Source: Convivina praedatoris
GTDB taxonomy: Bacteria; Bacillota; Bacilli; Lactobacillales; Lactobacillaceae
Assembly: GCF_933208495.1 (NCBI RefSeq)
Contig: NZ_CAKOET010000006.1
Location: 1 to 64,000, forward strand
DNA length: 64,000 nt
Reading direction: 5' to 3'
The position numbers and the translations under genes are program-made. A model generated the notes under the pieces. It saw only the letters and a list, made by a program, of their open reading frames with translations, did not search any database and was not told the DNA's origin. Shown here one piece after another: positions 2,878 to 41,946 of this stretch. Each line of letters opens with the position of its first letter. Positions within the stretch are counted from its first letter, which is position 1.

Positions 2878-3587
2878 ACATAACTCCTATCATCATTCCC
2901 ACCGACCGTGTTAAGTCGGTATAATTGCGCTATTTCAGCGTTTACTCTAATACCTGATAAATGGTACTTAGCCATTAAGTTTGCTTCGTCATAATGCCAA
3001 GCATCGTGATGGACACGACATAACGCCTCAACTCTGCGCCCCATGTGATTCACCTTGTTGCGGTTGTTACCCTGTCCGATACGTGAACCTTCCAAATGAT
3101 GGAGGTCGGCCTTCTTACCGCAGATAACACAAGATTTATTCATCAAGCAGGCGTATTCCCACTTGCTGACTTCTTCGGGTGCCAACTCTTGGATTGGCAG
3201 GAAACTTAAACCAACATTGTGGTCCAAGCAGAATTGCAACAGCATACTGATAAATTCGTTAGCCTGACTTTTCACACCCTTGCGGTCGCTTAGGCTGAAA
3301 TCTTCCACGCCATAATATCTGGCATACATCGCTTTGAAATTGTCGTAAATCAGGTTAGGATAACTCGCCCAATAACCACCAATTTCACTCTTGGCAATGT
3401 CACCGATAATCGCCCAAGCAAAGTTACGCTGTTGTGAATTCACATGGCGCTTGTCGTCAATGTATATCCCAACTTGATGTGTATGCTGTGGGTCGTATTT
3501 GTCCAGCTTGTACAGCTCGCTATCGTCGTTTAATTCAATCGTTAAAACTGAACCTCGACGGCTAAGCACCTTTCCGGTTAGTTCCAT
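2874..3587 (-). CDS. Putative HNH nuclease of phage replication region (HNHc_6 type)
   Basis: 237 aa. The C-terminal third contains a zinc-type HNH motif: CVICGKKADLHH, then N..NKVNHMGRR, then ALCRVHHDAWH. The N-terminal half (beta-rich, then RNFAWAIIGDIAKSEIGGYW) matches the phage-specific HNHc_6 family found beside replication genes in lactic phages. The likely role is nicking or cleaving DNA during replication or recombination; target unknown. The start at 3,587 (METGKV-like MELTGKVLS) is chosen because GGAG lies at proper distance; the longer form lacks a site. Confidence 0.78.
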   Translation of the reverse strand: MELTGKVLSRRGSVLTIELNDDSELYKLDKYDPQHTHQVGIYIDDKRHVNSQQRNFAWAIIGDIAKSEIGGYWASYPNLIYDNFKAMYARYYGVEDFSLSDRKGVKSQANEFISMLLQFCLDHNVGLSFLPIQELAPEEVSKWEYACLMNKSCVICGKKADLHHLEGSRIGQGNNRNKVNHMGRRVEALCRVHHDAWHYDEANLMAKYHLSGIRVNAEIAQLYRLNTVGGNDDRSYV

Positions 3588-4029
3588 ATCCAGACTCCAA
3601 AGCAACTAAGGCTTCGTACAATTTCCAAAAGTATTCCTTGCTTGGCACCTTCTTGTCATTCTCATAGCAATATATTGACGAATAAGAGATACCGGTCATC
3701 TTGGCAAGTTGCTTCAACGTCATGTGGTGGCACTTACGAATGGTCTTAAGCGTTATGCCAAATCCGTTGTTAATCATGTCATCGACTGACAAATCTTTGT
3801 TTTTCCTAAAATTACCGTTGATAACATCCACTTCTGGAATCTTCAAAAGCTCAATAAACTCATCTACGAAGTAAGTCTTAACCTCGCCTGTATCTTCAAA
3901 AATTTCATACGTCAGATACTTCAAATCATGACCATAGCGGCGATTAAACTCGCTAATTACTTGGTCACGTGTCCATCCAATGCGCTCACGATATTTTTTT
4001 AAATCAATGTTAGTGATTTCTTCCTGCAT
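3562..4029 (-). CDS. XRE-type helix-turn-helix protein
   Basis: 155 aa. Residues about 92-147 form a standard HTH_3 domain (GITLKTIRKCHHMTLKQLAK, then MTGISYSSIYCYENDKKVPS). The N-terminal 80 residues repeat a degenerate HTH-like pattern (LKKYRERIGWTRDQVISEF), so the protein may be a tandem HTH. Its end overlaps the HNH gene start by 26 nt. It is likely a DNA-binding regulator or replication accessory of the phage; no operator can be proposed from sequence alone. Confidence 0.75.
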   Translation of the reverse strand: MQEEITNIDLKKYRERIGWTRDQVISEFNRRYGHDLKYLTYEIFEDTGEVKTYFVDEFIELLKIPEVDVINGNFRKNKDLSVDDMINNGFGITLKTIRKCHHMTLKQLAKMTGISYSSIYCYENDKKVPSKEYFWKLYEALVALESGYGTNRKGA

Positions 4030-4040
4030 GTTATGGCCTC

Positions 4041-4904
4041 CTATCCCTTGGTTTTAATGCCTCTCAAATCATCCAATGCGGCTTGAAAGTCGTCACTAGG
4101 TTGCTGATTATCACCGCCGGTCACCATCTCAGGCTCTTGTACTTGTCGACGACCAAAGTTATTCGACTGTACCTTTGGCTTTTTCTTCGGTCGTTGACCA
4201 TTTACAAACCCAAGTTCGTTAGCCGTATCGGAATACTGGTCAAATTTCTTAACTAGTCCGCTAGACGTCAACATACTTGGATCGCTCCATGTATCAAACA
4301 CCCAATGCAACACGTCTGAAAACTCCTGGTACTTAACACCGTTCATGACTAACTTGCTGAAAGTCCCTTTATTTTTAACTTGTCGTCTAGTTGCTTTGTT
4401 AAATCCATCTAGCATTTTCTCCGCTAGGAATGGATCGAATAATTGCTCATCACTCTCATCCCCCTGTGAGGGGGTAGGGGGTGTATTATTAATTGATTTA
4501 TTAGATGATTTATTAAGTGATATATTATCTGCCCCGATTTCGGGGGTAGGTACTCCCGATTTTAGGGGTAGGGTACCCTCATTTTTGGGGGTAGGTACTC
4601 CCGTAGATTTCCCTTCATCAGGTTCAACAATGTACAGATAACGTTTACTAATTTCTTTGCTGTTTTCCTTGTATACCACTTTGCTTTTTAGTAACCCTTT
4701 TGTGTACAAATCACTCAAAGCATTTTGTACCGTTTTGATACTTTTATGATATTTTTCAGCAAGGCGTTTATTACTTGGAAAAGCCGTGCCTGTTGTATTT
4801 TCCAACGTATAGACAAATCCCAGTAACCTAACTTGAAAATCATTAATATTGTCTATCTCATCAACCCAAGCAGGTATTTGAGTGAAATATTTAAGATCTG
4901 ACAT
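4041..4904 (-). CDS. Phage replication initiator / replisome organizer with winged helix
   Basis: 287 aa. Residues 1-95 form a winged-helix DNA-binding domain (QVRLLGFVYTLENTTG, KRLAEKYHKSIKTVQNALS), typical of phage replication initiators in lactic phages. A low-complexity linker follows (residues 100-150, with GVPTP twice and Ser/Asn runs), then a C-terminal helical domain that may contact DnaC or DnaB. The linker is coded by the repeats at 4,469-4,603, suggesting the origin lies inside the gene as for lambda O and many Siphoviruses. The role is inferred from architecture and neighbours (recT, HNH, rusA). Confidence 0.78.
   Translation of the reverse strand: MSDLKYFTQIPAWVDEIDNINDFQVRLLGFVYTLENTTGTAFPSNKRLAEKYHKSIKTVQNALSDLYTKGLLKSKVVYKENSKEISKRYLYIVEPDEGKSTGVPTPKNEGTLPLKSGVPTPEIGADNISLNKSSNKSINNTPPTPSQGDESDEQLFDPFLAEKMLDGFNKATRRQVKNKGTFSKLVMNGVKYQEFSDVLHWVFDTWSDPSMLTSSGLVKKFDQYSDTANELGFVNGQRPKKKPKVQSNNFGRRQVQEPEMVTGGDNQQPSDDFQAALDDLRGIKTKG
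4469..4603. repeat. Probable phage replication origin: iterons plus AT-rich repeats
   Basis: Two exact 17-nt copies of GGGGGTAGGTACTCCCG lie at 4,542-4,558 and 4,587-4,603. Related GGGGTAGGGTACCCTC is at 4,565-4,580, and GGGGGTAGGGGG is near 4,470-4,481. Beside them are three 10-nt AT-rich repeats at exact 12-nt spacing: TGATTTATTA (4,494), TGATTTATTA (4,506) and TGATATATTA (4,518). Binding iterons next to an AT-rich tandem array inside an initiator gene is the classical origin layout. Confidence 0.75.
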
Positions 4905-9242: not shown

Positions 9243-9315
9243 ATTTATGCACAGAACTACATTACATAAGAAGCCTATACTATGGTTTGTAATTGGAGTA
9301 AATAAAGGTTTAGAA

Positions 9316-10482
9316 ATGAAGTTATTTAAAAGAAAAGATGAAAAACTTGAAGAAAAAATAATAACCCTTAATAATTCTATTGATGAAAAAAATAATGAGC
9401 TAAATATCATTAGAAAAAAGATTGTTTTAGCAAATCAAGACCTTGAGAATATTAATAATGAAATTGAAATGGGTTTTTATGAACCTACATATCAATTAAC
9501 CGATAGTTTGACATTAAAAGAAAAATTAAAAGGTATTATTGAATCTGAAAAGCTACTTGTTAGAAACAAACAAGCATTTATAATTACCCAAAGCTATACT
9601 TTCAATCAATCAATAGCCAAAGGCAAAACAATGCAGAATAAAAGCGGCTCTGCACTTATCAGAGCGTTTAACGGAGAAGCAACTGGAATAATAAATAAAG
9701 TAACTGCAAATAATTACGAAAATAAATTAGAATCTCTCACAAAAAGCTATGAGAAATTAAACAGTCTTTTTGACAGCTTTTCATTTGTTGTAATATCGAA
9801 TGAATATTTAAAATTAAAAATTGAAGAACTTACTTTATCTGTTGAATACGCATTAAAAAAACAAGAAGAAAAAGACATTCTAAAAGAACAAAGAGAGCGT
9901 GAAATCGAGGAAAAAAAGCTTCAAAAAGAAGTAGAAATTCAACATAAGATAATTGAAAAAGAACGAAAGCAGTACCAAAATGCATTATCCAAACTAGAGA
10001 AACAAGAAAAAAATGACGAAATTCTCGAACAAATTGCTTCATTGAAGTTAGAATTGCAACGACTTGATGATGACGCAAAAGAACTTGATTATCGAATTTC
10101 AAATTCAAAAGCTGGTTATGTATACATCATTAGCAACATAGGTTCATTTGGACAGAATGTCTACAAAATTGGAGTAACTAGACGTCTTACACCGATGGAC
10201 AGAATCGATGAATTAGGAAGTGCGTCTGTCCCATTTAAATTTGATGTTCATGCACTTATTTTTTCAGAAAACGCATTCCAACTAGAAAGAGAACTCCATA
10301 AAGAGTTTACAAATAGTCGTGTTAATCATATTAACAATAGAAAAGAATATTTTAATGTATCTTTAGATGAAATCAAGAAATTTATTAAAGAACAAAAAAA
10401 TATAACAATCGAATGGCATGATCATCCAGAAAATTCTGAATTTGAGTTATCTCAGAAAAGCAATCAAAGAACCAATAGATAA
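9316..10482 (+). CDS. DUF4041-type coiled-coil protein with C-terminal GIY-YIG (T5orf172) nuclease, SNIPE-like
   Basis: 388 aa. Residues 1-75 and about 170-255 are coiled coil. The middle segment (about residues 90-180, QSYTFNQSIAKGKTMQNKSG, then IRAFNGEA) fits DUF4041. Residues 267-360 are a GIY-YIG/T5orf172 domain: GYVYIISN, VYKIGVTRR, DRIDEL, LERELHKEF and KEYFNV. DUF4041 plus GIY-YIG is the layout of SNIPE, a membrane-associated nuclease that cuts phage DNA at entry; this copy shows no clear N-terminal membrane helix. Start at 9,316 chosen by AAAGG; the upstream Met at 9,247 lacks one. Its place after cI suits a lysogen-expressed exclusion gene. Confidence 0.78.
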   Translation: MKLFKRKDEKLEEKIITLNNSIDEKNNELNIIRKKIVLANQDLENINNEIEMGFYEPTYQLTDSLTLKEKLKGIIESEKLLVRNKQAFIITQSYTFNQSIAKGKTMQNKSGSALIRAFNGEATGIINKVTANNYENKLESLTKSYEKLNSLFDSFSFVVISNEYLKLKIEELTLSVEYALKKQEEKDILKEQREREIEEKKLQKEVEIQHKIIEKERKQYQNALSKLEKQEKNDEILEQIASLKLELQRLDDDAKELDYRISNSKAGYVYIISNIGSFGQNVYKIGVTRRLTPMDRIDELGSASVPFKFDVHALIFSENAFQLERELHKEFTNSRVNHINNRKEYFNVSLDEIKKFIKEQKNITIEWHDHPENSEFELSQKSNQRTNR

Positions 10483-10486
10483 TCAA

Positions 10487-10513
10487 CGTGCAGGCAGGAA
10501 CCACGTTAAAAGC
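10487..10513 (+). promoter_or_regulatory. CACGTTAAAAGC hairpin element in leader of the membrane-protein gene
   Basis: AACGTG and CACGTT flank a purine-rich loop (CAGGCAGGAAC) to form a 6-bp hairpin, followed by AAAAGC. The same arrangement occurs at 11,226-11,250 and, on the minus strand, at 571-602. It ends 17 nt before the TTG start at 10,530, just ahead of the GGGAGAGG ribosome site. Confidence 0.45.
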
Positions 10514-10529
10514 TATAGGGAGAGGAAAT

Positions 10530-10889
10530 TTGAACAAAAAAGTATTAATTCCAATATTAGCAGTAATTGTTATCGCAATTATCGGAGTAATTGGTTTTAA
10601 AGTTTACAGTGATAATAATGTAAAGGCAGACTATACTACGACGGTTGCAGAGAAAAAATTAAATGCCGGTGAAAACTTGGACGGAAAAATAATAGATGTT
10701 GAAATTGCCAGTGTAGAAAATAATACTCCTCTTGGTCAGAATATATGGGCTGGAGAACACCTGAATTTCTATCCAGATAAACAGCAACACAACTTAAAAA
10801 AGGGACAACATATCAAGTTTAAAATATCAGAAACAAAATCATCACTTGGATCTTGGTTTATTAAAGGAACTGTTGTTAGTACTAAATAA
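10530..10889 (+). CDS. Membrane-anchored small protein, superinfection-exclusion candidate
   Basis: 119 aa with a TTG start at 10,530, selected because GGGAGAGG sits seven bases upstream; the frame is open earlier without a site. Residues 4-22 (VLIPILAVIVIAIIGVIGF) are an uncleaved signal anchor. The remainder is a beta-rich extracytoplasmic domain (GKIIDVEIASVENN, GQHIKFKI, GSWFIKGTVV) that could be an OB-like fold. In lactic phages the slot between repressor and integrase often encodes superinfection-exclusion proteins (for example Sie2009 or the TP-J34 lipoprotein). The role is inferred from topology and position only. Confidence 0.65.
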   Translation: MNKKVLIPILAVIVIAIIGVIGFKVYSDNNVKADYTTTVAEKKLNAGENLDGKIIDVEIASVENNTPLGQNIWAGEHLNFYPDKQQHNLKKGQHIKFKISETKSSLGSWFIKGTVVSTK

Positions 10890-10892
10890 AAA

Positions 10893-11320
10893 AGCCCCGC
10901 GGGGCGTACATAGGGCATTCGTCAACCAATTTCTCTCTTTAATACGCTCAATTCCTCTTGACGATGTAAGTCCCGATATATAGGCATTCACTAGAACTAA
11001 CTCACTTATTCTCCAGTAAGCAATAACACTATTATCCTTGTGTATGCTAGTGATGTAAGTCCTAATACATACCGGGCATTCATCATTCGTTCTAAAAATT
11101 ATCCCAATAACTCCGAATATGCTTCCTGGATGATGATATAAGTCCCAATTACATATAGGCATTTTTCAGTGACTCCTGATGAATATTTACATTTCCCATA
11201 CTGACAATGTAAGTCCTACTACATAGTGCTGGGGAACCACGTTAAAAGCCAACCTAACTTCTCTGTTATAGAGGAGTGCTAACCTACATGCTCTTCGGGG
11301 CGTACATAGGGCATAAGCCT
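10893..11320 (+). ncRNA. Array of four variable stem-loops with conserved linkers, possible prophage noncoding RNA
   Basis: Four units share GGCATT before and (A)TGTAAGTCC after a variable stem-loop: 10,920-10,963 (CGTCAA/TTGACG), 10,989-11,052 (CACTAG/CTAGTG), 11,081-11,135 (CATCAT/ATGATG) and 11,165-11,205 (TCAGT/ACTGA). Linkers read TGTAAGTCC..A.TACATA..GGCATT. The block opens with GCCCCGCGGGGC and GTACATAGGGCATT. It closes with TGCTGGGGAACCACG/TTAAAAGCC, a CTTCTCT/AGAGGAG hairpin and a TTCG-capped hairpin ending GGGGCGTACATAGGGCAT. No credible reading frame spans it. The stems differ in sequence but keep pairing and a shared bulged T, which argues for RNA structure. Confidence 0.65.
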
Positions 11321-11374
11321 TTTTATTTGTCCCAATTTGTTAAATTTTAAGGTTTATTACAACTATTTCTTCAT

Positions 11375-11410
11375 TGTAAATTGTCAAAATGGCGTTTTTG
11401 TCAATTTACA
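11375..11410. repeat. 36-bp inverted repeat upstream of the integrase
   Basis: TGTAAATTGTCAAAA (11,375-11,389) faces TTTTGTCAATTTACA (11,396-11,410) across a 6-nt centre, with a single T/T mismatch at arm position 10. It lies 65 bp before the integrase ATG and has no coding explanation. Candidates are an operator for int control or a recombinase/excisionase binding site. Confidence 0.7.
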
Positions 11411-11475
11411 TCACGTTGTATGCCATGCAAAAGTTTAAAAATTACAATTATTCAAAAGTTGGTTAGGAAATAAAT

Positions 11476-12546
11476 ATGGCGACATATACCAAAACACAAG
11501 GCGGAAAATACCGAGCTAGAGTATCTGTTAAAGAAAATGGTAAATATAAACAAATTAGTAAGCAAGGTTTTCGCACAAAAAAGGAAGCTATTTTGTGGGC
11601 ATCTGAAATCGAAGCAGGCTATGTTGATCGAGTAAAAAATAAATATGAAAATATGCTGTTATCAGAATATTTTGAAAAATGGGTCGACACCTATAAATCA
11701 AAGATGGAATCAGCTACTCAATATCAGTACCAAAACACGCTCGATAATATCGTTAAGTATCTGCCCGATGTGAAGCTACTGGATTTCACCCGCACCGACT
11801 TTCAAAATTTTATTAACGAGTTTGGCAAGGACCACTCAAAGGAAACCGTAGCTAAAAGAAAAAATCATATTAGCCAGGCTTTAGAAGACGCCTATGCTGA
11901 CGGAATCATTAAGAATAACCCCACTATCCGTATTCAGCTTGTAGGTACGCCTGGTAAGTCGGCTTATGACAAGTTCCTAGAAGATAAGGAACTAATAAAA
12001 TTGGATCGTTACGTTAAGGAAAAATTGATTCAATATCCACATTCAAAATCATACCTAGCTATTTATATTTCAATCCATACCGGAATGCGTATTTGTGAAA
12101 TTATGGCGCTACAATCTGATGATATTGATTTTAAAAATAAGACTATTTCTGTTAATAAAGCACTTGACCAGTACCGTCATGTTAAATCAACCAAAACAGA
12201 GTCAAGCAACCGGGTTATTTCTGTTGATGACGACTTACTAGAAGAACTTAAAGGAATCGATGGGCCAATAGCAGATGTTAGCAATTATGGAGCTGGTAAG
12301 ACATTAAAAAAGGCAATCAAGGAGCTTGGTATCAAGACCGTATCATTTCACGCTCTAAGACACTCTCACGGTTCTTTATTACTCAGCCAAGGTGTTGATA
12401 TTAAATACGTTTCTGCTCGCCTAGGTCACAAGAATATATCCACTACAATCGACGTGTATACCCACCTTCTTAATTCTCAAAAGGAAAGTGAGGAGGAAAA
12501 GACACAACAGATTATGACATCCGTTTTTAAGTCTAAATCCGTCTAA
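11476..12546 (+). CDS. int: Phage integrase, tyrosine recombinase
   Basis: 356 aa. The N-terminal AP2-like arm-binding domain (residues 1-50), core-binding domain (60-160) and catalytic domain (170-335) are all present. Catalytic residues: Arg205 (HTGMR), Lys240, His292/Arg295 (HALRH), His318 (LGH) and Tyr328 (DVYTHL). It catalyses integration at the tRNA-Thr 3' end, which begins 150 bp downstream. Start ATG at 11,476 with TTAGGAAA. The catalytic set is intact, so the prophage may still be able to excise. Confidence 0.95.
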   Translation: MATYTKTQGGKYRARVSVKENGKYKQISKQGFRTKKEAILWASEIEAGYVDRVKNKYENMLLSEYFEKWVDTYKSKMESATQYQYQNTLDNIVKYLPDVKLLDFTRTDFQNFINEFGKDHSKETVAKRKNHISQALEDAYADGIIKNNPTIRIQLVGTPGKSAYDKFLEDKELIKLDRYVKEKLIQYPHSKSYLAIYISIHTGMRICEIMALQSDDIDFKNKTISVNKALDQYRHVKSTKTESSNRVISVDDDLLEELKGIDGPIADVSNYGAGKTLKKAIKELGIKTVSFHALRHSHGSLLLSQGVDIKYVSARLGHKNISTTIDVYTHLLNSQKESEEEKTQQIMTSVFKSKSV

Positions 12547-12622: not shown

Positions 12623-12667
12623 AAAAACCCCGGTGTAATCACGTTAAAGGCGATTATACCGGGGTTT
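12623..12667 (+). terminator. Strong terminator after int, loop contains ACGTTAAAGGC
   Basis: AACCCCGGTGTAATC pairs with GATTATACCGGGGTT (one G-T pair, 15 bp) and is followed by a T-run. The loop (12,641-12,651) is ACGTTAAAGGC, close to the ACGTTAAAAGC motif of the prophage RNA elements. It probably marks the right end of the prophage transcript. Confidence 0.8.
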
Positions 12668-36202: not shown

Positions 36203-36231
36203 TTGTTAACCCCAACTTTTCCTGCTACACT
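36203..36231 (+). promoter_or_regulatory. Promoter of pbuX-xpt
   Basis: TTGTTA (36,203-36,208) and TACACT (36,226-36,231), spacer 17 nt, with TGC extended -10 preceding TACACT. Transcription would begin just before the riboswitch. Confidence 0.8.
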
Positions 36232-36240
36232 GAAATTATA

Positions 36241-36362
36241 GTTTGCAGATATAATCGGTTAAAAATGGTAACCAAGTTTCTACCGCACACCTAAATGTGC
36301 GACTATCGCAACGGACACTGGTGATTTAGTGCTGGCCCCGCGATGGACAGCACTATTTTTTT
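36241..36362 (+). promoter_or_regulatory. Guanine-class purine riboswitch with terminator platform
   Basis: P2 stem GGTTA/TAACC, junction TTTCTACC, P3 stem GCACA/TGTGC with loop CCTAAA, kissing GG (L2) and CC (L3), then GACTAT: the C at 36,303 is the base that selects guanine/xanthine over adenine. Expression platform: TAGTGCTG (36,327) and CAGCACTA (36,348-36,355) plus seven T. Guanine binding should favour termination and shut off pbuX-xpt. Confidence 0.95.
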
Positions 36363-41842: not shown

Positions 41843-41861
41843 AGTGCGCTCCTTTAATTTC

Positions 41862-41934
41862 TTGTTTACAGACTTGGTCGTTCCTTACCAAGATAATTAC
41901 AATAAGTTTCCGGGGCTTATCGTGAGGTAAACAA
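41862..41934 (-). promoter_or_regulatory. L13 leader-like RNA
   Basis: On the minus strand a three-way junction is visible: outer TTGTTTAC/GTAAACAA, one hairpin GATAAG/CTTAT and one hairpin CTTGG/CCAAG. Position and fold match the L13 autoregulatory leader known from Firmicutes; binding of L13 to it is inferred. Confidence 0.7.
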
Positions 41935-41946
41935 TACCGTTTCTCA

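Follow-up and report, generated by a model that had tools for sequence, protein, structure and literature searches.

An array of covarying hairpins, most likely RNA, beside the integrase gene of a Convivina praedatoris prophage

Introduction

What does the gene-less DNA between the last moron gene and the integrase gene of a Convivina praedatoris prophage encode, where a stem-loop recurs with its pairing kept and its letters changed? We addressed this question in a 64,000-nt stretch of the genome (the window; contig C6 of genome G000) and in the other species of the genus searched (G001). The array belongs to a lysogenic operon with the order cI, morons, array, integrase, and follows a TACATA joint. 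A preliminary description made from the sequence had read it as four RNA stem-loop units of no known family, and had pointed to phages of other Lactobacillaceae as the place to look for relatives.

Results

Layout of the array and its neighbours

The four units, here called A units, occupy positions 10913-11225 of the window. Their start-to-start spacings of 89, 83 and 71 nt, the GGCATT present in all four and the four variable stems are as the preliminary description gave them. Units 1, 2 and 4 carry the 3′ tail TGTAAGTCC, and unit 3 carries TATAAGTCC. Unit 1 (10913-10982, plus strand, as are the other parts of the array) starts with G10913, the R0 base, followed by GGC at 10914-10916, the stem TCGTCAA/TTGACGA around a 32-nt loop, AAGTCC at 10968-10973 and a TATATA linker. 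Unit 2 (10982-11071) starts with A10982 and has the stem TCACTAG/CTAGTGA, a 52-nt loop, AAGTCC at 11057-11062 and TACATA at 11066-11071. In unit 3 (11074-11155; R0 G11074) the stem TCATCATTCG/TGGATGATGA closes a 37-nt loop, with AAGTCC at 11140-11145 and TACATA at 11150-11155, and in unit 4 (11157-11225; R0 A11157) the stem TTTTCAGTG/TACTGACAA is followed by AAGTCC at 11211-11216 and TACATA at 11220-11225. The stem of unit 4 contains one T·C mismatch, which its relatives at loci L254 and L248 lack. The units score 61.2, 63.0, 60.8 and 59.8 bits, respectively, with our covariance model of the A unit (R1); unit 1, for which pair counts also speak, was used in building the model, units 2 and 3 are in its alignment and unit 4 is not.

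The preliminary description was right about the four units and wrong to end the array at unit 4, since it continues as element B, a small hairpin and a hairpin C with TACATA. Element B (GTGC..CACGTTAAAAGC, 11226-11249), assigned from copies and variants elsewhere, is a start-associated leader that elsewhere stands before moron genes and here is gene-less. The small hairpin ACTTCTCT-GTTAT-AGAGGAGT (11257-11277), read directly, lies between B and C and recurs in similar form across the three homologous arrays. Hairpin C (GCTCTTCGGGGC) with G-TACATA (11290-11308) forms the right joint of the block, where homology to the other two arrays stops and three different flanks begin. The left joint (10894-10912), also read directly, belongs to the preceding small gene and comprises its hairpin C (GCCCCG/CGGGGC) and then G-TACATA. 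In the window array B and C stand together with no gene attached, as if a cassette might have lost its gene. A 19-nt direct repeat, CGGGGCGTACATAGGGCAT (family D3), bounds the block at 10900-10918 and 11296-11314.

Upstream, a small moron gene (10530-10889, plus strand; TTG start proposed) encodes a protein with a profile match to phrog_9078 (E 2.5e-22), no Pfam match and, by eye, a hydrophobic N-terminus. This gene has its own element B (GTGCAGGCAGGAACCACGTTAAAAGC, 10488-10513, plus strand), read directly and supported by copies. Between cI and the small moron lies a gene (9247-10482, plus strand) with T5orf172 and DUF4041 domains, which matches the PADLOC PD-Lambda-1 defence model (E 1.5e-117), so that the array adjoins a probable defence gene. 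Downstream of the block is a weak terminator-like stem (AGGGC-ATAA-GCCTT with a T-rich tail, 11308-11329, plus strand), not significant alone, as the scan gave 2 on both strands of the region against 1.4 in shuffles. The tyrosine integrase gene of the prophage follows at 11476-12546 (plus strand; PF00589, E 6.9e-22). Promoter-like matches around the array of the window were at shuffle level.

The window holds several further features. A near-perfect inverted repeat, TGTAAATTGTCAAAA/TTTTGTCAATTTACA, at 11375-11410 lies just upstream of the integrase gene and is possibly an operator or arm-type site. Between the integrase and a tRNA gene, the hairpin ACCCCGGTGTAATCACGTTAAAGGCGATTATACCGGGGT (12625-12665) contains a B-like core and may mark the prophage end. 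On the minus strand, two genes are separated by a B-C pair at 500-610, whose C (TTCGGGGCGTACATA) adjoins a Shine-Dalgarno (SD)-like sequence. The Rfam scan also found an ordinary purine riboswitch (36227-36324, plus strand) and an ordinary L13 leader (41859-41938, minus strand).

Structure and covariation of the A unit

The A unit follows the plan R-GGC-NN-P1-loop-P1′-URU-AAG-u-CC-Y, in which P1 is a variable stem of 7-10 bp, and UACAUA usually comes after it. It is a bulged hairpin in which a conserved basal part (R-GGC / G-u-CC-Y) and a 2×5 internal loop (NN / URUAA) are joined to a stem unconstrained in sequence and a loop that is poor in G and unconstrained in length. At the base, R0 and Y7 covary and are followed by G-C, G-C and C-G pairs, with a bulged U in the 3′ strand; these three pairs are invariant, so covariation neither proves nor disproves them. 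The CATT/ATG stem base with a bulged T that had been proposed does not hold, as the relatives carry A, G, T or C after GGC.

The register of the stem was examined at 29 distinct sites in G000 and G001 picked solely by the 3′ core TAAG[CT]CC[CT]..ACATA, with pairing not asked. An exact-register stem of at least 6 contiguous pairs occurred at 18 of the 29 sites and in 21 of 5800 dinucleotide-shuffled controls; the stems are beyond chance. A search by pairing gave 25 units that share one register, namely GGC, two bases and a stem ending exactly three bases before AAGYCC. One further hit (L248:13137-13273) was judged spurious and dropped before alignment and covariation counts.

In an alignment of 17 units (A2), all 7 stem pairs change on both sides and the covariation score is 0.685 against 0.254 in the control. 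All cells (100%) pair, a percentage that is partly circular because the units were selected by pairing; the both-side changes, the slid controls and the 3′-core test are less so. A2 excludes four short-loop units whose arms MAFFT had misplaced in alignment A1. The R0-Y7 pair (the base before GGC and the base after AAGYCC) was not used in unit finding; of 33 distinct units from all 39 model matches, 18 have G-C here, 13 have A-U and one has G-U, and in one the two bases do not pair (Fisher 4e-8 for the G/A by C/T table, with related units not independent). A larger alignment that includes R0-Y7 (A3; 25 of the 39 model matches, near duplicates, short-loop and poor-stem units being excluded without a formal rule) has 98.2% of cells paired, both-side changes at 7 of 7 stem pairs and at R0-Y7, and a covariation score of 0.553, against 0.234 ± 0.021 in shuffled and at most 0.211 in slid controls. 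RNAalifold returned the same 11 pairs as the covariation model. Between homologous units, changes at paired positions can be followed individually (TCGCCATC/GATGGTGA and TCGCTATC/GATAGCGA; TTGTTAGT/ACTAACAA and TTGTCAGT/ACTGACAA).

The covariation in homologues by whose absence the preliminary description had proposed to be judged was therefore present, as both-side changes in A2 and A3, and it was right to see a structured element in which stems covary and linkers stay constant. As a whole, the array folds only a little better than its shuffles (z -1.78; 5 of 100 did as well) and its minimum-energy structure lacks some of the four units, so the argument is comparative and does not depend on folding energy. 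We also considered a URU-UACAUA pseudoknot and set it aside, as the letters do not covary in the rows read by eye. These comparisons point to the A unit as a real structured element, most likely of RNA.

A units occur in arrays in one genus

At E ≤ 1, R1 matched 20 places in G000 and 19 in G001, a few of them weakly. The 39 matches form arrays of two to five, plus one single weak match (G000:C3:9887). The 3′ pattern TAAGYCCYN{1,10}ACATA occurs 15 times in each genome, and its reversed form 0 and 1 times. A regex hit at L250:5446, on the strand opposite both neighbours and without an R1 match, was not counted as a unit. As DNA, the window array is nearly duplicated in G001:C15 (96%) and occurs a second time in G000 itself, on C5 (87%); elsewhere the matches are short and partial.

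Three arrays lie in prophage lysogenic operons (the window, L248 at 7.8-8.1 kb and L254), each on the sense strand of the cI-moron-integrase operon. The other arrays with model matches have at least one same-strand neighbouring ORF each, which about three in four would have by chance per locus. An array kept in both species (L246/L252) comes after a cI-like HTH/S24 gene and before a convergent mscL gene; in L246 (6235-7468, minus strand) and L252 the cI-like S24 repressor gene stands directly before the array and an integrase gene (PF00589) about 3 kb further. Other arrays have as neighbours a lectin-domain adhesin gene (L253) or small genes beside a Ser-rich ORF identified by eye (L249/L251), or they lie before an NAD(P)H-binding protein gene (L247/L255) or around a small gene near what we read as a phosphoribosyltransferase gene (L248/L255). 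Four arrays sit at orthologous sites in the two species.

Beyond these genomes, the strict 3′ pattern hit 25 of 301 family genomes including the two genus members, the other 23 with one hit each, and its reversed control hit family genomes at least as often. R1 at E ≤ 0.01 hit 3 of 251 family genomes, the third (G028) with one hit in protein-coding DNA at a folate-gene locus, and at E ≤ 0.001 it hit 2 of 295 order genomes, the second (G537) antisense inside an ORF read as an HTH protein; these many-genome searches used stricter filters, at which weak matches are lost. Over 97 B loci plus the window, 38 pattern loci and 25 more loci, R1 gave no convincing new copy, with a best score of 25.1 bits in L053, L057 and L043, apparently one sequence. 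A phage collection search and one exact IMG/VR pattern found no relatives. The A-unit family thus appears, on present evidence, to be limited to one genus, where it also occurs outside prophage lysogeny operons; the relatives expected in other Lactobacillaceae phages did not appear.

The absence of a known family was upheld. Rfam 15 gave no family inside the array in a whole-window scan at gathering score; at E ≤ 5 the sole match in 10300-11600 was a sub-threshold CRISPR-DR50 at 11373-11412, outside the array, and at E ≤ 0.5 ten related loci yielded only a tRNA. In the literature covered, mostly outside subscription journals, we met no description of the A unit or relatives, and the available parts of PMC3952083 and PMC7693887 mention no such element. 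The family is apparently undescribed.

The array is bounded as a block, and element B marks cassette joints

Homology among the window, L254 and L248 arrays extends to GCGTACATA, beyond which the three 3′ flanks differ: the window continues with AGGCATAAGCC-like DNA and the integrase gene, L254 with a gene of 303 aa that includes a PemK-like stretch, and L248 with DUF6978 and DUF1828/1829 genes, the latter a PADLOC candidate-defence match. On the 5′ side, homology with L248 begins at CATAGGGCATT, directly after the hairpin C of the preceding gene; in L254 the similarity to the window reaches further back, over a related gene end and hairpin C. At L073 (G001:C7) the small gene and the following DNA are present and near-identical to the window site and the array is absent, with a single copy of the 19-nt repeat carrying one difference. 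The block would have been gained rather than lost at L073, as far as one empty site, which does not separate the two, can suggest, and homologous recombination at the shared linkers would move it. From these sequence comparisons, the array is carried as a mobile cassette in the prophage.

Two flanking genes deserve mention. The 303-aa gene (L254:5998-6909), directly 3′ of the homologous array, has a partial PemK/MazF-like stretch at residues 56-112 (E 2e-8). In L248 (6395-7768, minus strand) the DUF6978 and then the DUF1828/DUF1829 gene (PADLOC PDC-M24B) lie directly 3′ of the array, and translation of the DUF6978 gene from an in-frame ATG at the C hairpin would add a leader, MPFGAYI.

The L254 gene, together with the tandem structured repeats, bears on whether the array is a type III toxin-antitoxin RNA, whose repeats would inhibit a MazF-fold RNase. 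Such an RNA stands directly upstream of its toxin gene, and in the window no plus-strand ORF of at least 50 aa intervenes between the array and the integrase, which is itself the next such ORF. DUF6978 and DUF1828/1829 genes occupy the corresponding place in L248, and of four PF02452 matches in the two genomes only that of L254 is beside an array. This explanation is most improbable and, for the window, largely refuted.

Element B (CGTGCA..ACCACGTTAAAAGC) is widespread among phages of Lactobacillales, with 51 IMG/VR and 46 GTDB stretches; the GTDB hosts are Leuconostoc, Fructobacillus, Weissella, Lactococcus, Streptococcus and Enterococcus, and one was binned as an Alphaproteobacterium. Among 88 non-redundant sites, 67 have an SD and start codon within 60 nt after B, and 42 have an integrase match in the locus, the nearest one lying on the strand of B in 42 of 42. 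A hairpin with TACATA (C) precedes B at 17 of 82 sites of other phages and genomes; as a control, 59 permuted hexamers average 0.44, and two that overlap TACATA reach 10. Over 100 B sites, 133 of 192 pairs related at B (0.69) are related on one side only, with the pairs not independent because many B loci are near-duplicate phage contigs. The same fraction is 0.00-0.17 at 7 of 8 control offsets and 0.32 at -100. As one-sided relatedness peaks at B, the element marks cassette joints. In several contigs among a set of IMG/VR and Lactococcus loci (L152-L160, L179, L183, L210) cargo swaps at B, which is followed by a moron or directly by a shared non-coding stretch of some 300-400 nt before a putative integrase.

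The sharp block boundaries at CATA and TACATA, the empty site, the direct repeat at both ends and B as a breakpoint could also be explained by recombination sites in DNA, with A units or the TACATA/B/C linkers recognised by a recombinase as single-stranded hairpins, much as the paired GTTRRRY/RYYYAAC boxes of integron attC are recognised by IntI. The A-unit stems could indeed also act as single-stranded DNA hairpins. However, the breakpoint evidence concerns the B and C linkers rather than the A units, the breakpoints are accounted for by ordinary homologous recombination between repeated linkers, and four arrays have stayed at orthologous sites in two species. We regard recombinase recognition as highly doubtful.

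UACAU linkers and a host EndoA-type RNase

Bacillus subtilis NdoA/EndoA cuts at UACAU (PMC6562991, in the part available), and the host has a clear EndoA homologue beside its alanine racemase gene (4mdx, E 5.8e-37). The 425 nt of the array contain 7 TACAT against 0.43 expected at the rate of 25 genes. Among 25 distinct units found without requiring TACATA, 17 have it within 18 nt 3′ of the unit. With the A stems forced, the predicted mean unpaired probability of the five UACAUA is 0.69-0.82 (0.09-0.90 unforced), and that of UACAUU at 11188 and UACAUG at 11285 is 0.32 and 0.51, respectively.

The excess of TACAT, its position at most units and the hairpin with TACATA before B would suit punctuation or a decoy, in which host EndoA-type RNase cuts the array into single hairpins or is soaked up by it. 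Against this, 8 of the 25 units lack TACATA, and the B-led genes of EndoA-positive hosts do not avoid TACAT (21 observed against 14.4 expected in 31 genes), nor do the morons of the genus itself (10 against 9.8 in 12 genes). TACAT is rarer in B-led genes of IMG/VR contigs whose host is unstated (4 against 10.3 in 22 genes) and in two Streptococcaceae B-led genes (0 against 1.2). An EndoA homologue is present in all 18 genomes searched from Leuconostoc, Fructobacillus, Weissella, Enterococcus and related bacteria and in none of the 6 from Streptococcus and Lactococcus. TACATA stands upstream of B at 0 of 7 Streptococcaceae sites and 14 of 40 in other named genera, a contrast that is not significant (p 0.086) and is confounded by kinship. 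Because B-led genes of EndoA-positive hosts do not avoid UACAU, we keep punctuation by EndoA as a rival and consider it improbable. An extended form would make the array a new RNA family of free-sequence hairpins with one constant recognition motif, strung on UACAU cut sites, in which the host MazF-type RNase chops the prophage transcript into hairpin-capped cistrons and free hairpins and the same linkers serve as joints for swapping defence and other moron cassettes; this we hold to be a decidedly remote prospect.

The loops evolve like intergenic DNA

Loops range from 8 to 53 nt among A units and are G-poor, with 58 G in 652 nt of 19 non-redundant loops. Loops as conserved guides were considered and rejected: between G000 and G001 they differ by 7.5%, which looked strong beside the 31.5% at fourfold sites, and the proper control, other intergenic DNA at 9.9%, removed the signal (the stretch down of the C3 array, with 175 of 500 columns aligned, is left out of the intergenic sum). 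Arms and core differ by 3.9% and 4.8%, respectively.

These figures weigh on a multi-headed antisense RNA, each large loop of which would pair with a different target mRNA. Loops that are unrelated between units and poor in G fit such a role, as does a mild enrichment of SD-complementary 4-mers in the loops (22 against 13.6 in dinucleotide shuffles, p 0.026, and 16.3 in mononucleotide shuffles, p 0.12). A second anti-SD set (TCCC, TCCT, CTCC) gave 18 against 8.9 (p 0.002) and 11.4 (p 0.044), so the enrichment is weak and varies with set and shuffle. The loops, however, change about as fast as other intergenic DNA and faster than arms and core, and between the window and L248 arrays same-position loops have drifted while stems were kept. 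An antisense role is accordingly quite improbable.

Discussion

The covarying structure, the copy number, the block boundaries, the empty site and B as a mosaic joint are established at the level of sequence. The roles named in the preliminary description, as a regulator, a decoy or a phage-competition RNA, gained no support from these results. As to function, we tentatively read the A array as a cis-acting punctuation element of moron transcripts, intercistronic or in the 3′-UTR, and put this at somewhat short of an even chance. The array would be transcribed and its RNA would be the active form, as suggested by pairing that is kept while sequence changes, by the rarity of G in loops and by prophage arrays that are sense to the operon. 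The A hairpins would shield or delimit cistrons, with the constant internal loop recognised by a host RNA-binding protein or ribonuclease, and the array would stabilise or process its message in cis, an action suggested by loops that evolve like other intergenic DNA. We assume recognition of some kind because a hairpin that only protects could do without a constant internal loop. A single 3′-UTR role fits some arrays poorly, as some are before genes and in L251 a terminator-like hairpin separates the array from the next gene. A classical terminator after the C1/C9 array, readable by eye as a long-loop hairpin and T run, was discarded when the scanner found none there.

The same constant internal-loop letters, set on a free-sequence stem and often in tandem, would also suit a binding array, in which each A unit is one copy of a recognition site for an RNA-binding protein or small ligand and stems and loops are presenters, so that the whole is a sponge or tandem aptamer. 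Arrays in leader-like as well as trailer-like locations agree with this. Yet we saw no class of neighbouring gene common to the arrays, no cognate protein came to light, and neither a terminator nor a start follows the arrays consistently. A binding array is in our estimate rather unlikely, and cis-acting punctuation is the reading we prefer.

Compact and cleanly covarying (8 of 11 pairs changed on both sides), the A unit is a ready test object: it exists in many copies, the two species carry arrays at orthologous positions, and one site is empty. Element B ties it to accessory-gene exchange beside the integrase in temperate phages of Leuconostoc, Weissella, Fructobacillus, Lactococcus and Streptococcus, and here the cassette joint itself can be named and assayed.

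Among known systems, CRISPR arrays combine near-identical repeats with unique spacers; the best direct-repeat family here is 19 nt long, 74-84% identical to its reference and spaced at 89, 83 and 71. T4-type phages carry mobile regulatory cassettes, which are small intergenic modules of an early promoter and a stem-loop linked to accessory-gene shuffling. The array resembles them as a set of small intergenic stem-loop modules tied to the shuffling of accessory phage genes and differs in that they carry early promoters, whereas its own promoter-like matches are at shuffle level. ROOL and GOLLD, the latter named for lakes and Lactobacillales, are large ornate non-coding RNAs (PMC12286853, in the part available); the array is likewise a large, putatively non-coding structured RNA, but has no Rfam 15 match and varies in unit number between arrays. 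Type III toxin-antitoxin RNAs such as ToxI consist of multiple RNA repeats (PMC8860590, in the part available). The array shares the multiple repeats, and one related array precedes a MazF-like gene, but the window has no toxin gene, and its units are 71-89 nt apart, each with its own stem sequence.

The closest parallel to element B and its hairpins is the SAS/ESAS system of Cluster K mycobacteriophages. There a short conserved motif marks the translation start of some phage genes, mostly in one orientation, and about half of the SAS are accompanied by imperfect 17-bp inverted repeats with a variable spacer, the ESAS (PMC3203893, in the part available). The 13-bp SAS sequence GGGATAGGAGCCC has no exact copy in the window. 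A one-mismatch copy at 4035-4047 (minus strand), far from the array and just upstream of ORF 3562-4029, is probably chance, as matches with up to 2 mismatches arise in 30 of 100 shuffles (mean 0.31). SAS/ESAS and element B with its hairpins are alike in being start-associated and of one orientation, and differ in sequence and hosts and in the B of the window array, which has no gene of its own. The available part of PMC3203893 describes no tandem arrays of covarying hairpins; the half-sites of ESAS conserve their sequence, whereas the stems of the A units conserve their pairing.
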